A stretch of DNA of 64,000 nucleotides, taken from the NCBI GenBank assembly GCA_016125375.1, contig WGLU01000003.1, positions 227,880-291,879 of the forward strand, written 5' to 3'. Made by a program: the position numbers and the translations under genes. Under the pieces are notes generated by a model that saw only the letters and a list, made by a program, of their open reading frames with translations, did no database searches and was not told the DNA's origin. Below are positions 56,520 through 63,978 of the stretch, in pieces (position 1 is the first letter of the stretch; every line of letters starts with the position of its first letter). This DNA is from Pseudomonadota bacterium. GTDB lineage: Bacteria > Pseudomonadota > Alphaproteobacteria > UBA1280 > RI-95.

Positions 56520-56786
56520 TGCCGCAACTTCAAACCGTTGCAGATGGTGGCGGATGCGATTCTGGACTGCTCTCAGCCTAAGCAAATCATTCTGGACCCA
56601 TTTGCCGGGAGCGGCACAACACTCATCGCTGCCGAAAAAATCGGACGTAAGGGGTATGTCATGGCGCTGGACCCGGTCTATGTGGATGTCATCATCAACC
56701 GCTGGCAAGAGTTTACGGGTGGGCGGGCGAGGCTGTCTGACGGTGAGCAGATATTTGCTGAGGTGAAAGGGGAGCTCCATGGCTAG
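56520..56786 (+). pseudogene. C-terminal remnant of a phage-type DNA-modification methylase
   Basis: The readable frame, right after a stop at 56517-56519, gives NFKPLQMVADAILDCS, then the SAM motif IILDPFAGSGTTLIAAE and DPVYVDVIINRWQEFTG. This is the C-terminal third of N4/N6 DNA methylases of the ParB-methylase type; the catalytic motif IV region and everything before it are missing. A possible TTG start at 56538 would give 82 residues. The cut lies only about 45 bases after tRNA-Tyr, which fits deletion or integration at a tRNA. Confidence 0.75.
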
Positions 56787-57264
56787 AATTTACCGTGGGA
56801 AAAGGCGAATAGGCTCCAGCAAGGCAACTGCAAAACCCCCTACGCCAGCCCCAGCGGTGGAAAGCAAAGCGGATGAGCAAGTGGGCTACAAGAACCCGCC
56901 CAAACATACTCAGTTTAAAAAGGGGCAGTTCGGCAACCCTAAGGGTAGACCAAAGAAAGAAACTCTCCCTCTTGCGTACCTTGCACTACGGGAGCTGGGC
57001 TCCACGATCGTCGCGGTGGAGAATGGCAAAAGGATCCGCATTACCAAAAAAGAGGCCTAGGTTAAGGGGCTTGTTGCAAACAGCGTCAAAGGTGACCGAT
57101 CTGCGCAGAAGTACCTGATGGAGATTATTCGCGGTGAAGAAAACAGGTTGTTGAAGCAAGCACACCAAGAGGAATGGAATAAAAAGCAGCGTGTCCTTGA
57201 TGGCATGCCCGATGAGGAAGCCCGTGCCTCGTATCTGGAGTCTCTGCAGGGCCCGGAGGGTTAA
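56779..57264 (+). pseudogene. DUF5681 protein interrupted by an in-frame stop
   Basis: ATG 56779 overlaps the end of the methylase remnant. The protein contains VGYKNPPKHTQFKKGQFGNP and KGRPKKE, the DUF5681 hallmark often beside phage terminase genes. A TAG at 57058-57060 breaks the frame after RITKKEA. The same frame continues with VKGLVANSVKGDRSAQKYLME to a stop at 57264, as intact homologues do. One base change (CAG to TAG) would explain it. Both this and the methylase look like decayed prophage genes. Confidence 0.75.
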
Positions 57265-59642: not shown

Positions 59643-59688
59643 AGTATCGTCGCCGGCTAGATACAAATAATAGCGGGTTTCTGATCGG

Positions 59689-59710
59689 CCTCCCTTGAGG
59701 GGGCTTTTTC
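59689..59710 (+). terminator. weak Rho-independent terminator before the stator-like operon
   Basis: GCCTCC and GGGGGC pair with one wobble around CTTGA and are followed by five T. It ends the 57.5-59.6 kb unit. The following 200 bases contain no gene and should hold the promoter of the next operon. Confidence 0.6.
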
Positions 59711-59910: not shown

Positions 59911-60744
59911 ATGTCCTCTTCTCTCAACCGTCACGGGCTTGCCCTTCTGCTGGGCAAATCCCTGCTGTGCATTGCCGCTGGCATTGCCCTGTACCAGACT
60001 GGCTACCTGCAGCGCGTGCTGCCGCAGGATCAGTTCAGCTGGATCTGGGTGGGCGGCATGGCCCTGGTCTTCGTCTATCAGGCGGTGTTCGGCATGGTGC
60101 CGTACCAGCGCCTGACCGACCGCGAGGTCAGCGTCTACAACAAGGTCAAGGCACAGCTCGACAAGCAGGATGACGCGGCTGCCGCGCAGATTCTGGATCC
60201 GGAGGCCTATACCGAGGCCGAACGGAACACCGGTCTGTTCGACATGCTGATGCGCATCCGTCACATCTGCACCGATACCCGGCGCCACACCGCGCTGGAC
60301 ATCGACCGGCTGCTGCAGCGGTTCAGCAACTGGCACGCGCTCAAGGCGCGTCCCATCCACTGGACCCGTCGCAACCTGCTGACCTACGGCATCATCGGCA
60401 CCTACATCGGCCTCAATCTGGCCACCGGTGGTGCGGAAAAGATGGCCTCGGGCGAGCCGGAAGCCATCTTCGCCTACGTGGTGGAGATGTTCCAGTTCCT
60501 CAGTCTGGCGATTCTGACCACCCTGGTCGGCATCAAGCTGGGCGGCGTGATGCTCAACCACGCGGTCGAGCGTGCCGAGCGCACGGTGCACAACATCGCC
60601 AACGACCTGAGCGCGGCCCTGTATGACAGCGGATTCGTCGCCTGGGCCGAAGACGCCGAGGTGCGTACCAAGCTGCATGCCGAGAAGGTGGCTATCGAAG
60701 CCGCAAAGACCGAAACCACGGAAGCCGAAGGCGCTGCGTCGTGA
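59911..60744 (+). CDS. MotA/TolQ/ExbB-like proton channel subunit
   Basis: 277 residues. Helices lie at about 11-31, 42-62, 155-172 and 192-215, with a cytoplasmic loop of some 90 residues between the second and third, as in TolQ/ExbB/MotA. Helix 3 carries TYGIIGTYIGL and helix 4 AILTTLVGIKLGG, which match the GxxGTxxGL and ALxTTxxG motifs of the family. The C-terminus is a long charged helix. A first-in-operon position and the GTGA overlap with the next gene indicate coupled synthesis with its B subunit. The family link is by topology and motifs. Confidence 0.72.
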   Translation: MSSSLNRHGLALLLGKSLLCIAAGIALYQTGYLQRVLPQDQFSWIWVGGMALVFVYQAVFGMVPYQRLTDREVSVYNKVKAQLDKQDDAAAAQILDPEAYTEAERNTGLFDMLMRIRHICTDTRRHTALDIDRLLQRFSNWHALKARPIHWTRRNLLTYGIIGTYIGLNLATGGAEKMASGEPEAIFAYVVEMFQFLSLAILTTLVGIKLGGVMLNHAVERAERTVHNIANDLSAALYDSGFVAWAEDAEVRTKLHAEKVAIEAAKTETTEAEGAAS

Positions 60745-61604
60745 GCTGGAAACTGCCTCACGGCGGAGATGTTCACGAGCAGGAAACCGATCAGGACCGG
60801 GCGATGGACGACGTGATGTCGGCCTTCGTCTTCATCCTGCTGATCATCGCGGCGGCGCTGCTGATGATCTATACCCCCACAAAGTTGGGTGGTACGTCGG
60901 TTTCCCAGTGGGCGCCGGGCATTCCGCTCCGGTTCGAATCACGGCGGGACTTCAACCTGACGGGCACCACGCTCGACGACTTCACCTGTGAGGTCGTCAG
61001 TGGTGTCCATCTGGGTGAGCCCGGGCACTTTGGCCGCGACGGTAAGTTGCTGCCCGAGTTCAAGGCGCTTTACAAGAAGCGCCCGCCGGAATGTTCACGT
61101 GCTGACCAGGATCTGTATGTCCGCTACATCGAGCCGAACGGCAAGGTGCACGACGTGCTGAGCATGGACAGCCCGAACCAGATGGGTACGGCAGAAGGTG
61201 CCTTCGCCTACAGCGAGGCCAACCGGTGGAATCTGGGTGAAAACACCCCGAATCCCTTCCGCGACGTGCGTGTGGTCACACCGTTTCGTCTGGAAGAGCT
61301 GACCTATCGGAATAAATACCTGAAGCCGGGGACGTATATCTTCAACGTCCATCTTCAGCGGGGTGACGACTATTTCCCCGATGAACCGGTCAAGGTTGCG
61401 GTCTACCTGATTGCGTTTGAAGGAACAACGCACGAGCAGGTCATCTTTGGTGGTTTTGTCGATCTTCGGATGGACACGCCCCAGACCCGCGAGCGCACCA
61501 TTGCTACCTTCAAAGTGGACGATGCCGGCCAGATCATTCCCGGCAGCATCGACACCACAACGCAGACGTCCATCATCGAGGCTCTGGCGGGGAACGTCAA
61601 ATGA
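60741..61604 (+). CDS. MotB/ExbD-like single-pass subunit B1
   Basis: 287 residues from GTG 60741. A short cytoplasmic N-terminus leads to one helix, MDDVMSAFVFILLIIAAALL. Asp24 followed by V-M-S-A aligns with the proton-binding Asp of MotB (D-F-M-T-A). The remaining 230 residues are extracytoplasmic and beta-rich, with KRPPECSRAD, LKPGTYIFNVHLQR, DEPVKVAVYLIAFEG and PGSIDTTTQ. The OmpA/MotB peptidoglycan motif is absent. The next gene is a paralogue. Confidence 0.7.
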   Translation: MSWKLPHGGDVHEQETDQDRAMDDVMSAFVFILLIIAAALLMIYTPTKLGGTSVSQWAPGIPLRFESRRDFNLTGTTLDDFTCEVVSGVHLGEPGHFGRDGKLLPEFKALYKKRPPECSRADQDLYVRYIEPNGKVHDVLSMDSPNQMGTAEGAFAYSEANRWNLGENTPNPFRDVRVVTPFRLEELTYRNKYLKPGTYIFNVHLQRGDDYFPDEPVKVAVYLIAFEGTTHEQVIFGGFVDLRMDTPQTRERTIATFKVDDAGQIIPGSIDTTTQTSIIEALAGNVK

Positions 61605-61651
61605 CGCGCCCCGTTACCCTCACCTCACCACGCACGCATTAGGAGGCGTAC

Positions 61652-62455
61652 ATGAAGCTGAATATCTTCGGCTCCCATGGTCATCAGTCTCCTGATGACC
61701 AGGACTTTCTGAAAGCGGCCCTCGATCTGAAAACGGCGATGTTCTTCCTGCTGTTGATTATCGTGGCGGCGCTGCTCGTCATTTATCCGCTGGTGTCGAA
61801 AGACGGCGCGGGTAAGAGCACGGAAAGTGCGACTGCGTTCCGTCCCGTGGGCTTGCCGCTGCGCGTGCAGGTGACCTGGGACAGCAACCTGGACGCTTCT
61901 CAGGCCCTCCAGCCTGGGCAGATGTGCCTTAAACCCGGTGACAGGGGTTTCGATATCAATCGACGCCCGCCCGAGTGTTCGGCCGCGGATGTGGATTTGT
62001 GGATGCAGCGTGTCACGCCGGAAGGCGAGCGCGTTCTGTACGCCGCGAACCGCAAGTTCCCGGACGGGTTGATGGCGTATACACCGGATGACCGGGGTAT
62101 CGCCTACAACAAGGTTCCGACGACGTTCCGTGCCGAGCAGATGGTGCCCCAGTATTCGGTTCTGCCGAAGGGGGAGTACACCATCAACATCGATCTGTTC
62201 CGACCCGACGCCTACCGACCGGACAAGCCGGTCAAGGTGTGCGCCATCGTCATTTATGCCGAAGGTGCCAAGGACAAGGAAAAGGTCCTGTACCGGAACT
62301 GCCGCCAACTGGGTGTTGACAAGAGCTTCCCGCGGGAGGTGACCTTGGTCAGCTTCCGTATCGGCGACGGTCACAATCTGGTCGAAGGGTCGGTGGATAC
62401 GCGCACGCAAGTGCCGTTGGCCGTGCCCTACTATGCCGTCAACACAGGGAAGTGA
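61652..62455 (+). CDS. MotB/ExbD-like single-pass subunit B2
   Basis: 267 residues. One helix follows ALDLKTAMFFLLLIIVAALL; Asp25 with L-K-T-A-M again fits the MotB pattern. The extracytoplasmic domain shares RRPPECSAAD, LPKGEYTINIDLFR, DKPVKVCAIVIYAEG and EGSVDTRTQ with B1, so the two are paralogues. AGGAGGC is upstream of ATG 61652. The next gene begins four bases after its stop. Two Cys not present in B1 could form a bridge. Confidence 0.7.
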   Translation: MKLNIFGSHGHQSPDDQDFLKAALDLKTAMFFLLLIIVAALLVIYPLVSKDGAGKSTESATAFRPVGLPLRVQVTWDSNLDASQALQPGQMCLKPGDRGFDINRRPPECSAADVDLWMQRVTPEGERVLYAANRKFPDGLMAYTPDDRGIAYNKVPTTFRAEQMVPQYSVLPKGEYTINIDLFRPDAYRPDKPVKVCAIVIYAEGAKDKEKVLYRNCRQLGVDKSFPREVTLVSFRIGDGHNLVEGSVDTRTQVPLAVPYYAVNTGK

Positions 62456-62458
62456 GCC

Positions 62459-63940
62459 ATGTTCTTCAACACTCTGTTCTCATCGGAGTACTGGCGGGCC
62501 GTCCTGTCCGGAGATGCACACGTGAGCTTCCTGTGGAACTTGTTTCTGCAGGAGCACCAGTTGCTCTTCGTGATCGGCGTGCTTGGCCTTTCCTTCCTGG
62601 TCCTGACTCTCCTCATCCTCTACGTGCTGCCGCGCAGCTCGCTGGGGTGGGGAAAAGGCGTCGCCATCGCGGCGTTCGCTGGTCTGGCCTTTGTGCTGCA
62701 GATCTCGCACAGCTTCGTTGTGCCGGAAATGTATGCCAATGCGGGGAAGGGACGTGCCAACCCTGCCTGCCCGTCGCTGGTCTACGGACCGGACGGCAAG
62801 CTGGTGTTCGTCAAGTCACTCATCATCCACGAGGGCAAACCGCGCAACGCGATGGTGGCCCAGAAGCATGTGTATCTGGTCGAACCGACGCCCTACACGG
62901 GCGTGTACAACGGCGAGGCCTCCGTGGGTCTGCTGCTGCGCAACCATGATGCACTCGGGGACACGTTCCCCGTTTACTGCAGTGCGGCTCTGTCGGCGGG
63001 CGGTCAGGCATGGCTTGACCGTATCAACGCCTACGGAACGCCCGTCAACCACGAGATGCTCAAGCAGATTCTCGTGAGCAACTGGAGTCCGGACTTCTGG
63101 CAGGGCATCGTCGAGGGCAAGATCAAGCCGTCGCAGATGTCGGAGCTTTTGGCCCTCTACATGGGCAATGAGCTGCTGCCGGCCAATGCCAAGGACCTCG
63201 CGCGCGCCATCCAGATGGCCGCGATCGACGTGTTGAAGCCCAACCACGACCGTGGTGTGGCCGAGATGCGCAAGGTCTGGCGGACCATCGCCGAACGCCT
63301 GAAGGCGGAACGCGGCATCGATCTGCCCCTGCATCACGACTTCCCCATGGCGGGGACGCCCAACGGGCACTACGCCATGCATGTCGAGATGGGGCCGATG
63401 ATGGTGGAGTACATCCTCATGGACGTCACCGACGAGGCACCTGCTTTGATGCAGGAACTGGACTATACCAAACGTCTGGTCGCCGAAGTCTGGAGCCAGA
63501 GCTTTGCTGACATCGGCATCAAGTTCGCCGAAACGGTCAGCACGGATCTGGAGCGTCTGGGGGTGAATAACCGCCAGCCAGCCGTGACCATGCCCGGTGA
63601 AGCGCCGTGGTACCTCCTGCCCGAAAGTGACGGTCAGGAAGGTGACGCCGACGGCGATGGCCAGAGCGATGGCAAAGGCAAGGCCGGTGGCAAAGGCAAG
63701 GCGCAGTCCGACCGTCAAGGTCAGGACGGCGAAGCCGAAGCCCTCCGCCAGAAACTGCTGGAAGTCATGAAGCAGCAGGGTCTGGAAGCCGGCAGCGCTC
63801 AGGCGCAGCTGGATGGCATGCAGGCCTCGCAGGGTCAGGGCAATGGCTCGGGCAACGGCCCGGGTAATGTCGACGTCGGCGACCCCGACGGACTGGGTGG
63901 CCCGCAAGGCGATCCCAAGCCCGACAGCGAACGCTTCTAA
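62459..63940 (+). CDS. membrane protein with low-complexity Gly/Asp/Lys tail, partner of the stator-like genes
   Basis: 493 residues. Two helices lie at about 35-57 and 66-84. A large soluble domain of about 300 residues follows (VVPEMYANAGKGRANPACPS, GKIKPSQMSELLALYMGNEL, FADIGIKFAETVSTDLERLG). The last 100 residues are repetitive: GDADGDGQSDGKGKAGGKGK, then a helix, then GQGNGSGNGPGN. No family is recognised. It is the last gene of the operon and is closed by a strong terminator, so it most likely works with the channel subunits. Confidence 0.7.
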   Translation: MFFNTLFSSEYWRAVLSGDAHVSFLWNLFLQEHQLLFVIGVLGLSFLVLTLLILYVLPRSSLGWGKGVAIAAFAGLAFVLQISHSFVVPEMYANAGKGRANPACPSLVYGPDGKLVFVKSLIIHEGKPRNAMVAQKHVYLVEPTPYTGVYNGEASVGLLLRNHDALGDTFPVYCSAALSAGGQAWLDRINAYGTPVNHEMLKQILVSNWSPDFWQGIVEGKIKPSQMSELLALYMGNELLPANAKDLARAIQMAAIDVLKPNHDRGVAEMRKVWRTIAERLKAERGIDLPLHHDFPMAGTPNGHYAMHVEMGPMMVEYILMDVTDEAPALMQELDYTKRLVAEVWSQSFADIGIKFAETVSTDLERLGVNNRQPAVTMPGEAPWYLLPESDGQEGDADGDGQSDGKGKAGGKGKAQSDRQGQDGEAEALRQKLLEVMKQQGLEAGSAQAQLDGMQASQGQGNGSGNGPGNVDVGDPDGLGGPQGDPKPDSERF

Positions 63941-63948
63941 ACGATAGA

Positions 63949-63978
63949 ACGGCCCCCGCGAGGGGGCCGTTTTTTTTA
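63949..63978 (+). terminator. Rho-independent terminator of the stator-like operon
   Basis: ACGGCCCCC and GGGGGCCGT pair around GCGA and are followed by eight T. TAAACGATA directly precedes the hairpin. Confidence 0.93.

Follow-up and report, generated by a model that had tools for sequence, protein, structure and literature searches.

The window analysed here, a stretch of DNA of 64,000 nt, contains at 59911-63940 four co-directional genes (A, B1, B2 and C) with a terminator-like hairpin on either side, and the question is what kind of machine these genes encode. The 5:2 ion-driven motors drive flagella and gliding and also energise Ton/Tol transport and Zorya defence. The original prediction placed A in the MotA/TolQ/ExbB group of such motors and took the operon as a whole for a proton-driven envelope motor.

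Layout of the operon

The predicted four-gene arrangement, including the quoted motifs, the Asp residues at the helix starts, the small overlaps and gaps, and the terminator, was confirmed by open reading frames, hydropathy combined with alignment, and a hairpin scan (Table 1). B1 overlaps A by 4 bases, the gap between B1 and B2 is 47 bases and that between B2 and C is 3 bases. Both hairpins come from a consensus scan only, and the overall hairpin count was not above the shuffled expectation.

Table 1. Genes and flanking hairpins of the operon, in window coordinates
Feature	Position	Strand	Description
Terminator-like hairpin	59687..59705	+	Upstream; separates the operon from the preceding gene
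A	59911..60744	+	277 aa; MotA/TolQ/ExbB-like channel subunit with four helices; Thr of the polar ring: T164 (TM3), T203 and T204 (TM4)
B1	60741..61604	+	287 aa, GTG start; one TM helix, D24 at its start; periplasmic DUF2135-related beta domain
B2	61652..62455	+	267 aa; B1 paralogue, 34% identity; D25 at helix start; AF2: helix 14-48 and nine strands
C	62459..63940	+	493 aa; two N-terminal helices, enlarged soluble part, Gly/Gln/Asp-rich tail; assigned as C from gene order, topology and a weak similarity
Terminator-like hairpin and T run	63946..63973	+	12-pair stem, rho-independent type; closes the operon

Direct searches of the window proteins against Pfam, NCBIfam and PHROG yielded nothing significant, which places them outside current annotation; PADLOC returned a weak match of A to ZorA1 (E 0.0084). 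Profiles of A and B were built on sequences from phages and other genomes, leaving out the window's genome and its nearest relative; they matched window A (E 4.8e-12), B2 (E 5e-12) and B1 (E 3e-7). The best shuffled-sequence scores with the same profiles were 10.1 bits (A) and 6.9 bits (B). Since the matches of A, B1 and B2 lie far above these scores, the operon features are not attributable to chance.

Two genes in the surroundings were noted in passing. A lone DUF5681 protein (E 1.1e-11) is encoded at 56779-57060, ~3 kb upstream of the operon; members of this family are frequent near phage terminases. After the operon, just beyond the window end, lies a gene whose product is a catalase-peroxidase of the KatG type, apparently with a signal peptide (L009, 7081-9354).

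The A, B and C proteins

Judged by its profile matches, A falls within the MotA/TolQ/ExbB superfamily, as had been predicted, though as a divergent member. The A family profile matched solved chains of MotA (8gqy, E 2.5e-7), ZorA, PomA, TolQ and ExbB, and a profile of the short A proteins gave the same solved-structure matches. PF01618 was matched by 29/30 A-family proteins, phage ones included (E <= 0.1; best 6.3e-12), and its cut-off was passed by a scanned set of A members and by a paralogue of A encoded in the same genome. The PF01618 search proposed as a check was thus positive for the relatives and the paralogue and negative for window A itself, which stayed below the cut-off and is tied in via its relatives and the independent profile.

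Hydropathy of window A gave three segments over the threshold; the fourth, TM3, which carries the GIIGTYIG of GIIGTYIGL (residues 160-168), was placed by alignment and from the paralogue, where four segments exceed the threshold. The motif ILTTLVGIKLGG occupies residues 201-212. The threonine ring was positioned by HMMER alignment to MotA 8gqy: the T164 position (TM3) is Thr in 111/113 A proteins, while in the TM4 pair the T203 position is Thr/Ser in 110/113 and the T204 position in 113/113. The TM2-TM3 loop of window A measures ~95 residues without recognisable homology. About 65 residues follow TM4, in agreement with the claim that the channel lacks ZorA's long tail.

In Vibrio PomA, T158, T185 and T186 bind Na+, and H+ stators have Ala at T158 and T185 (PMC10374538). 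The counterpart of PomA T185, the residue distinguishing Na+ from H+ stators, is Thr or Ser in 110/113 A proteins, window A included, with the PomA-to-A equivalence placed by motif. Because this residue is kept, sodium coupling of A-B-C appears at least as likely as proton coupling, with a slight preference for sodium, and the assignment of the motor to protons in the original prediction was not upheld. This conclusion is tempered by TolQ and ExbB, which also retain Thr at the first of these sites.

Hydropathy detected a single helix in B1 (25-43) and in B2 (30-48), with D24 and D25 at the respective helix starts; an Asp is found there in 114/115 B proteins. Within the beta domain, B proteins have a common D-x-D-L-W/Y motif. 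Direct matches of B to PF09906 (DUF2135) were marginal, none reaching the cut-off and the best (E 2.6e-4) narrowly missing it. The B profile matched, at E 1e-8 to 1e-11, the C-terminal domain (e.g. 890-1008) of two kinds of protein, secreted YfaP-like ones and VIT proteins of ~1000 residues; the PF09906 matches of these proteins fall at the same place (E 1e-19 to 3e-9). Going by these profile matches, the periplasmic domain of B is a relative of DUF2135, which YfaP-type and VIT/DUF2135 proteins contain. Profile searches of B1, B2 and 36 B proteins gave no OmpA-like, ExbD/TolR or vWA matches, and the predicted lack of an OmpA-like domain in the B subunits therefore stands.

The AF2 model of B2 has nine strands besides a single long helix (14-48), with a pLDDT of 75 overall and about 90 in the core. 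Foldseek comparison of this model with the PDB returned generic immunoglobulin-like sandwiches only (E above 0.01). Foldseek against viral models retrieved two ~700-residue uncharacterised phage proteins (Cellulophaga phi4:1 and Campylobacter IBB35), which probably represent DUF2135-like domains, and a crocodilepox protein that was taken as spurious. A phage B protein (L069, 5251-5847) matched phrog_1735, a 673-residue profile of function not known (E 5.5e-5), which suggests that large phage proteins also contain DUF2135-like domains. B1 and B2 are both paralogous to the single B present elsewhere. On the B tree they form their own supported pair (99/93), probably by a lineage-specific duplication, although the long branches of this tree call for caution. 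The bacterial sequences sampled for this tree nest in a group to which viral sequences belong as well.

Window C has two helices by hydropathy and is much longer than a typical C. The model of a typical C (L102; pLDDT 85) combines two helices with a small beta-beta-beta-alpha domain, and Foldseek found nothing significant for it in the PDB. The C-family profile did not recognise window C, and it resembled the nearest relative's C weakly (E 0.026). The C proteins of the paralogous operon and of the nearest relative are clearly alike (E 1e-28); the profile-profile probability linking this pair to the wider C family was low (27%). Window C is thus weakly tied to the family, its assignment following gene order and topology.

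Distribution in bacteria and phages

Another contig of the same genome encodes the paralogous A (23% identical, E 1.2e-12) in a three-gene operon of A, one B and one C, located directly 3' of aspS; besides this paralogue, the genome has three other PF01618 loci. On another contig it also encodes a tandem pair of Cys-rich KCGEGKCG proteins, accompanied by DUF692-like and DUF2063-like partners (L008, 2664-5129), a cluster that presumably resembles the HvfABC-type copper-binding peptide cluster. In genome G005, three trypsin-like proteases in a row precede aspS-A-B-C (L010, 1093-4315).

Within the class, the B model matched 61/386 genomes, and A, B and C were adjacent in 29/30 sampled loci, with the one exception at a contig end. 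Related genomes of the class carry A-B-C in unrelated surroundings, in L013 with the order A-C-B. In the named collection, B was present at 80/80 A loci and C at 78/80, the two exceptions lying at contig ends; among the organisms are Azospirillum, Skermanella, Denitrobaculum, Kiloniellales, Sneathiellales and SAR116. Across the phylum, 30/397 sampled genomes had a match, many of them from one genus (g259) with genomes of 6-9 Mb, and about ten of these matches cover the B domain alone. All of the phylum-wide loci examined (12/12) contained A, B and C, at least four of them outside the window's class. In Azospirillum brasilense Sp7, the module is located on plasmid ABSP7_p1. The conserved gene neighbourhood that had been set as a check was accordingly found at the bacterial loci of all three samples.

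Clustering of neighbours at the phage and bacterial loci yielded no constant partner beyond C. As the neighbours outside A-B-C are not conserved, these three genes should suffice, and A-B-C is, by its gene linkage, a self-contained module with obligately linked members.

Searching with A recovered 33 viral contigs, where B adjoins A in 33/33 and C was recognised by profile in 28/33. This phage carriage, like the paralogy of B1 and B2 and the second operon in the genome, did not feature in the original prediction. Annotated phages with A, B and C are Rhizobium/Sinorhizobium phage 16-3 (module genes p038, p040 and p042), RHph_X2_25, RHph_TM3_3_14B, RHph_N3_13 and RHph_N34. The B gene also occurs in further relatives, among them AP-16-3 and the 150-kb phages P10VF and RL38J1. 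Annotation gives no function for the module products of the named phages. The neighbours are true phage genes, encoding tail sheath and tube, UvsX, a UvsW-like helicase, DnaB, SbcC and ribonucleotide reductase. Viral A proteins range from 136 to 209 residues, mostly < 170; in most, the TM2-TM3 loop is nearly absent and almost nothing follows TM4. These are the smallest A subunits met in the analysis and are therefore good subjects for determining the bare needs of a motor core. In the literature searched, of which few subscription papers and preprints were part, we found no description of a phage-encoded MotA/ExbB-like motor or of the A-B-C family, and no paper naming DUF2135.

A role in a lysis cassette was considered and not adopted because the position of the module varies among phages (tail sheath/tube, UvsX, UvsW, DnaB or ribonucleotide reductase); in L057 it lies beside an endolysin-like gene. 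Trypsin-like, probably periplasmic or membrane-anchored proteases are encoded next to the module at L162 (12181-13080), L163 (6583-7230), L166 (8027-8737) and L165 (12459-13151), just upstream in three Rhizobium phages and downstream in RHph_N3_13. Such a protease was not counted as part of the system, since it was seen in the Rhizobium phages and L010 only, plus three weaker, distant matches, and was absent near other viral and bacterial loci. Inspection by eye of several marine phage contigs revealed a secreted ClpP/SppA-like protein directly 5' of A (L059, 2555-3241; L076, 4060-4767; L077, 4069-4773), a second protease-like neighbour that is not related to the trypsin-like one. A small secreted protein family also recurs next to the phage module (L053, 1328-1603; L056, 4059-4517; L058, 6380-6682).

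Proposed mechanism and comparison with known motors

The superfamily of A, the conserved Asp and threonine ring, the identity of the B domain, the linkage of A, B and C and the occurrence in phages can all be read from the sequences. On this basis, we consider it probable that the operon encodes an A5B2-type ion-driven inner-membrane motor acting through the DUF2135 domain, with C as a regulator or anchor. A would form the channel, presumably pentameric, with two B helices in its centre and their Asp facing the threonine ring of A. The pair in the window is probably one B1 and one B2; in most relatives it would be two copies of one B. Ion flow would shift the B helices relative to A, and this movement would be transmitted to the periplasmic DUF2135-related beta domains, whose contact in the envelope may be C or material of the cell wall or outer membrane. 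With its two helices and small periplasmic domain, C would be an obligate accessory regulating or anchoring the motor. We infer the 5:2 stoichiometry, the rotation, the periplasmic output and the role of C as regulator. Because phage A is almost devoid of a cytoplasmic part, the output there should lie in the periplasm, through the DUF2135 domains and perhaps C, unless the ion flux is itself the output; a Zorya-like tail can play no part.

A broader proposal, which we offer tentatively, is that an ion-driven envelope motor circulates between phages and bacteria. The near-minimal phage form (A down to 136 residues) might act on the host envelope via the DUF2135 domain, for example in superinfection exclusion or pre-lysis envelope weakening, while alphaproteobacteria might retain the module as a stable envelope system. 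If true, phage A-B-C would be the first viral MotA/ExbB-type ion-driven motor. The phages carrying the module are of several unrelated types, and the question is raised why viruses should carry an envelope motor. Its presence in Sinorhizobium meliloti phage 16-3 and in Azospirillum brasilense Sp7 makes the role directly testable.

Phage carriage, a minimal A without a cytoplasmic domain, a variable position in phages (including beside the endolysin-like gene in L057) and the lack of a conserved force transducer among the neighbours would also fit an alternative in which A-B-C is not a motor but a gated ion leak. Such a leak would be plugged until a periplasmic signal, and depolarisation would be its output (superinfection exclusion, abortive death or phage lysis timing). 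We regard it as unlikely: the conserved Asp and threonine ring are the turnover site of true motors, the large conserved periplasmic domain and the obligate C exceed a leak's needs, and the module is stably carried on chromosomes, e.g. in many sampled genomes (6-9 Mb) of genus g259.

The weak ZorA1 match of window A, the place of ZorA among the best PDB matches and the presence of the module in phages and scattered genomes could be explained by a Zorya-like complex that senses envelope damage and defends against phages or competitors. However, Zorya function needs the ZorA tail and peptidoglycan binding (PMC11890865), and A-B-C has no long ZorA tail and no peptidoglycan-binding OmpA-like domain; PADLOC found no ZorB match in the window, and no conserved effector gene adjoins the module. 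This makes a defence complex of that kind quite doubtful. A further ExbBD/TolQR-type energiser, whose transducer would be a TonB- or TolA-like protein acting at the outer membrane and encoded away from the operon, seems very unlikely. The superfamily is common to ExbB and TolQ, and ExbBD and TolQR are able to serve distant transducers, but B has no ExbD/TolR domain, the surveyed loci offered no conserved linked candidate transducer, phages carry none alongside the module, and three other PF01618 loci are available in the genome for Tol/Ton/Mot roles.

The preferred reading, a motor with a DUF2135-related output, can be set against the known systems. With the MotA/TolQ/ExbB (PF01618) 5:2 motors, A-B-C has in common the fold signature of A, the threonine ring, the Asp-bearing B helix and the adjoining A and B genes; it differs in the DUF2135-related B domain, the obligate C and the very short phage A. 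To the repertoire of 5:2 motors, the family contributes an output domain of a new kind and a third, obligate subunit. The MotAB flagellar stator has an OmpA-like peptidoglycan-binding domain on B, absent from the B proteins here, and a large cytoplasmic torque-generating loop in A, which in A-B-C is reduced or absent. ExbBD and TolQR combine an ExbD/TolR domain with a TonB/TolA transducer, whereas A-B-C has neither an ExbD match nor a conserved neighbour gene. Zorya ZorAB is similar in superfamily, in the weak ZorA profile match and in the Asp and Ser/Thr ring, but possesses a long cytoplasmic ZorA tail, an OmpA-like peptidoglycan-binding ZorB domain and a ZorC/D/E-type effector that A-B-C lacks. 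Because the defining B domains or A parts were absent when tested, A-B-C is not a flagellar stator, an ExbBD/TolQR system or Zorya. DUF2135 proteins (YfaP-type secreted; VIT/DUF2135) resemble B in having a periplasmic beta domain with a D-x-D-L-W/H motif; unlike B, they are secreted or large and have no motor helix.

Williams-Jones et al. (2025; PMC12204202) described motor-coupled TPH-vWA proteins, in which a TolQ-like gene occurs without ExbD/TolR, the Asp helix directly bears a large non-PG domain, and B pairs are heterologous. The window is similar in all three respects; the domain is vWA in that system and DUF2135-related in A-B-C, and a C protein and phage carriage are not described there. 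In parallel to the heterologous TPH-vWA pairs, the two B genes suggest a 5:1:1 complex in the window. Non-flagellar homologues have been grouped as 'generic ion transporters' with diverse extra domains of unknown kind (PMC12505986), and the A-B-C family would fall among these.
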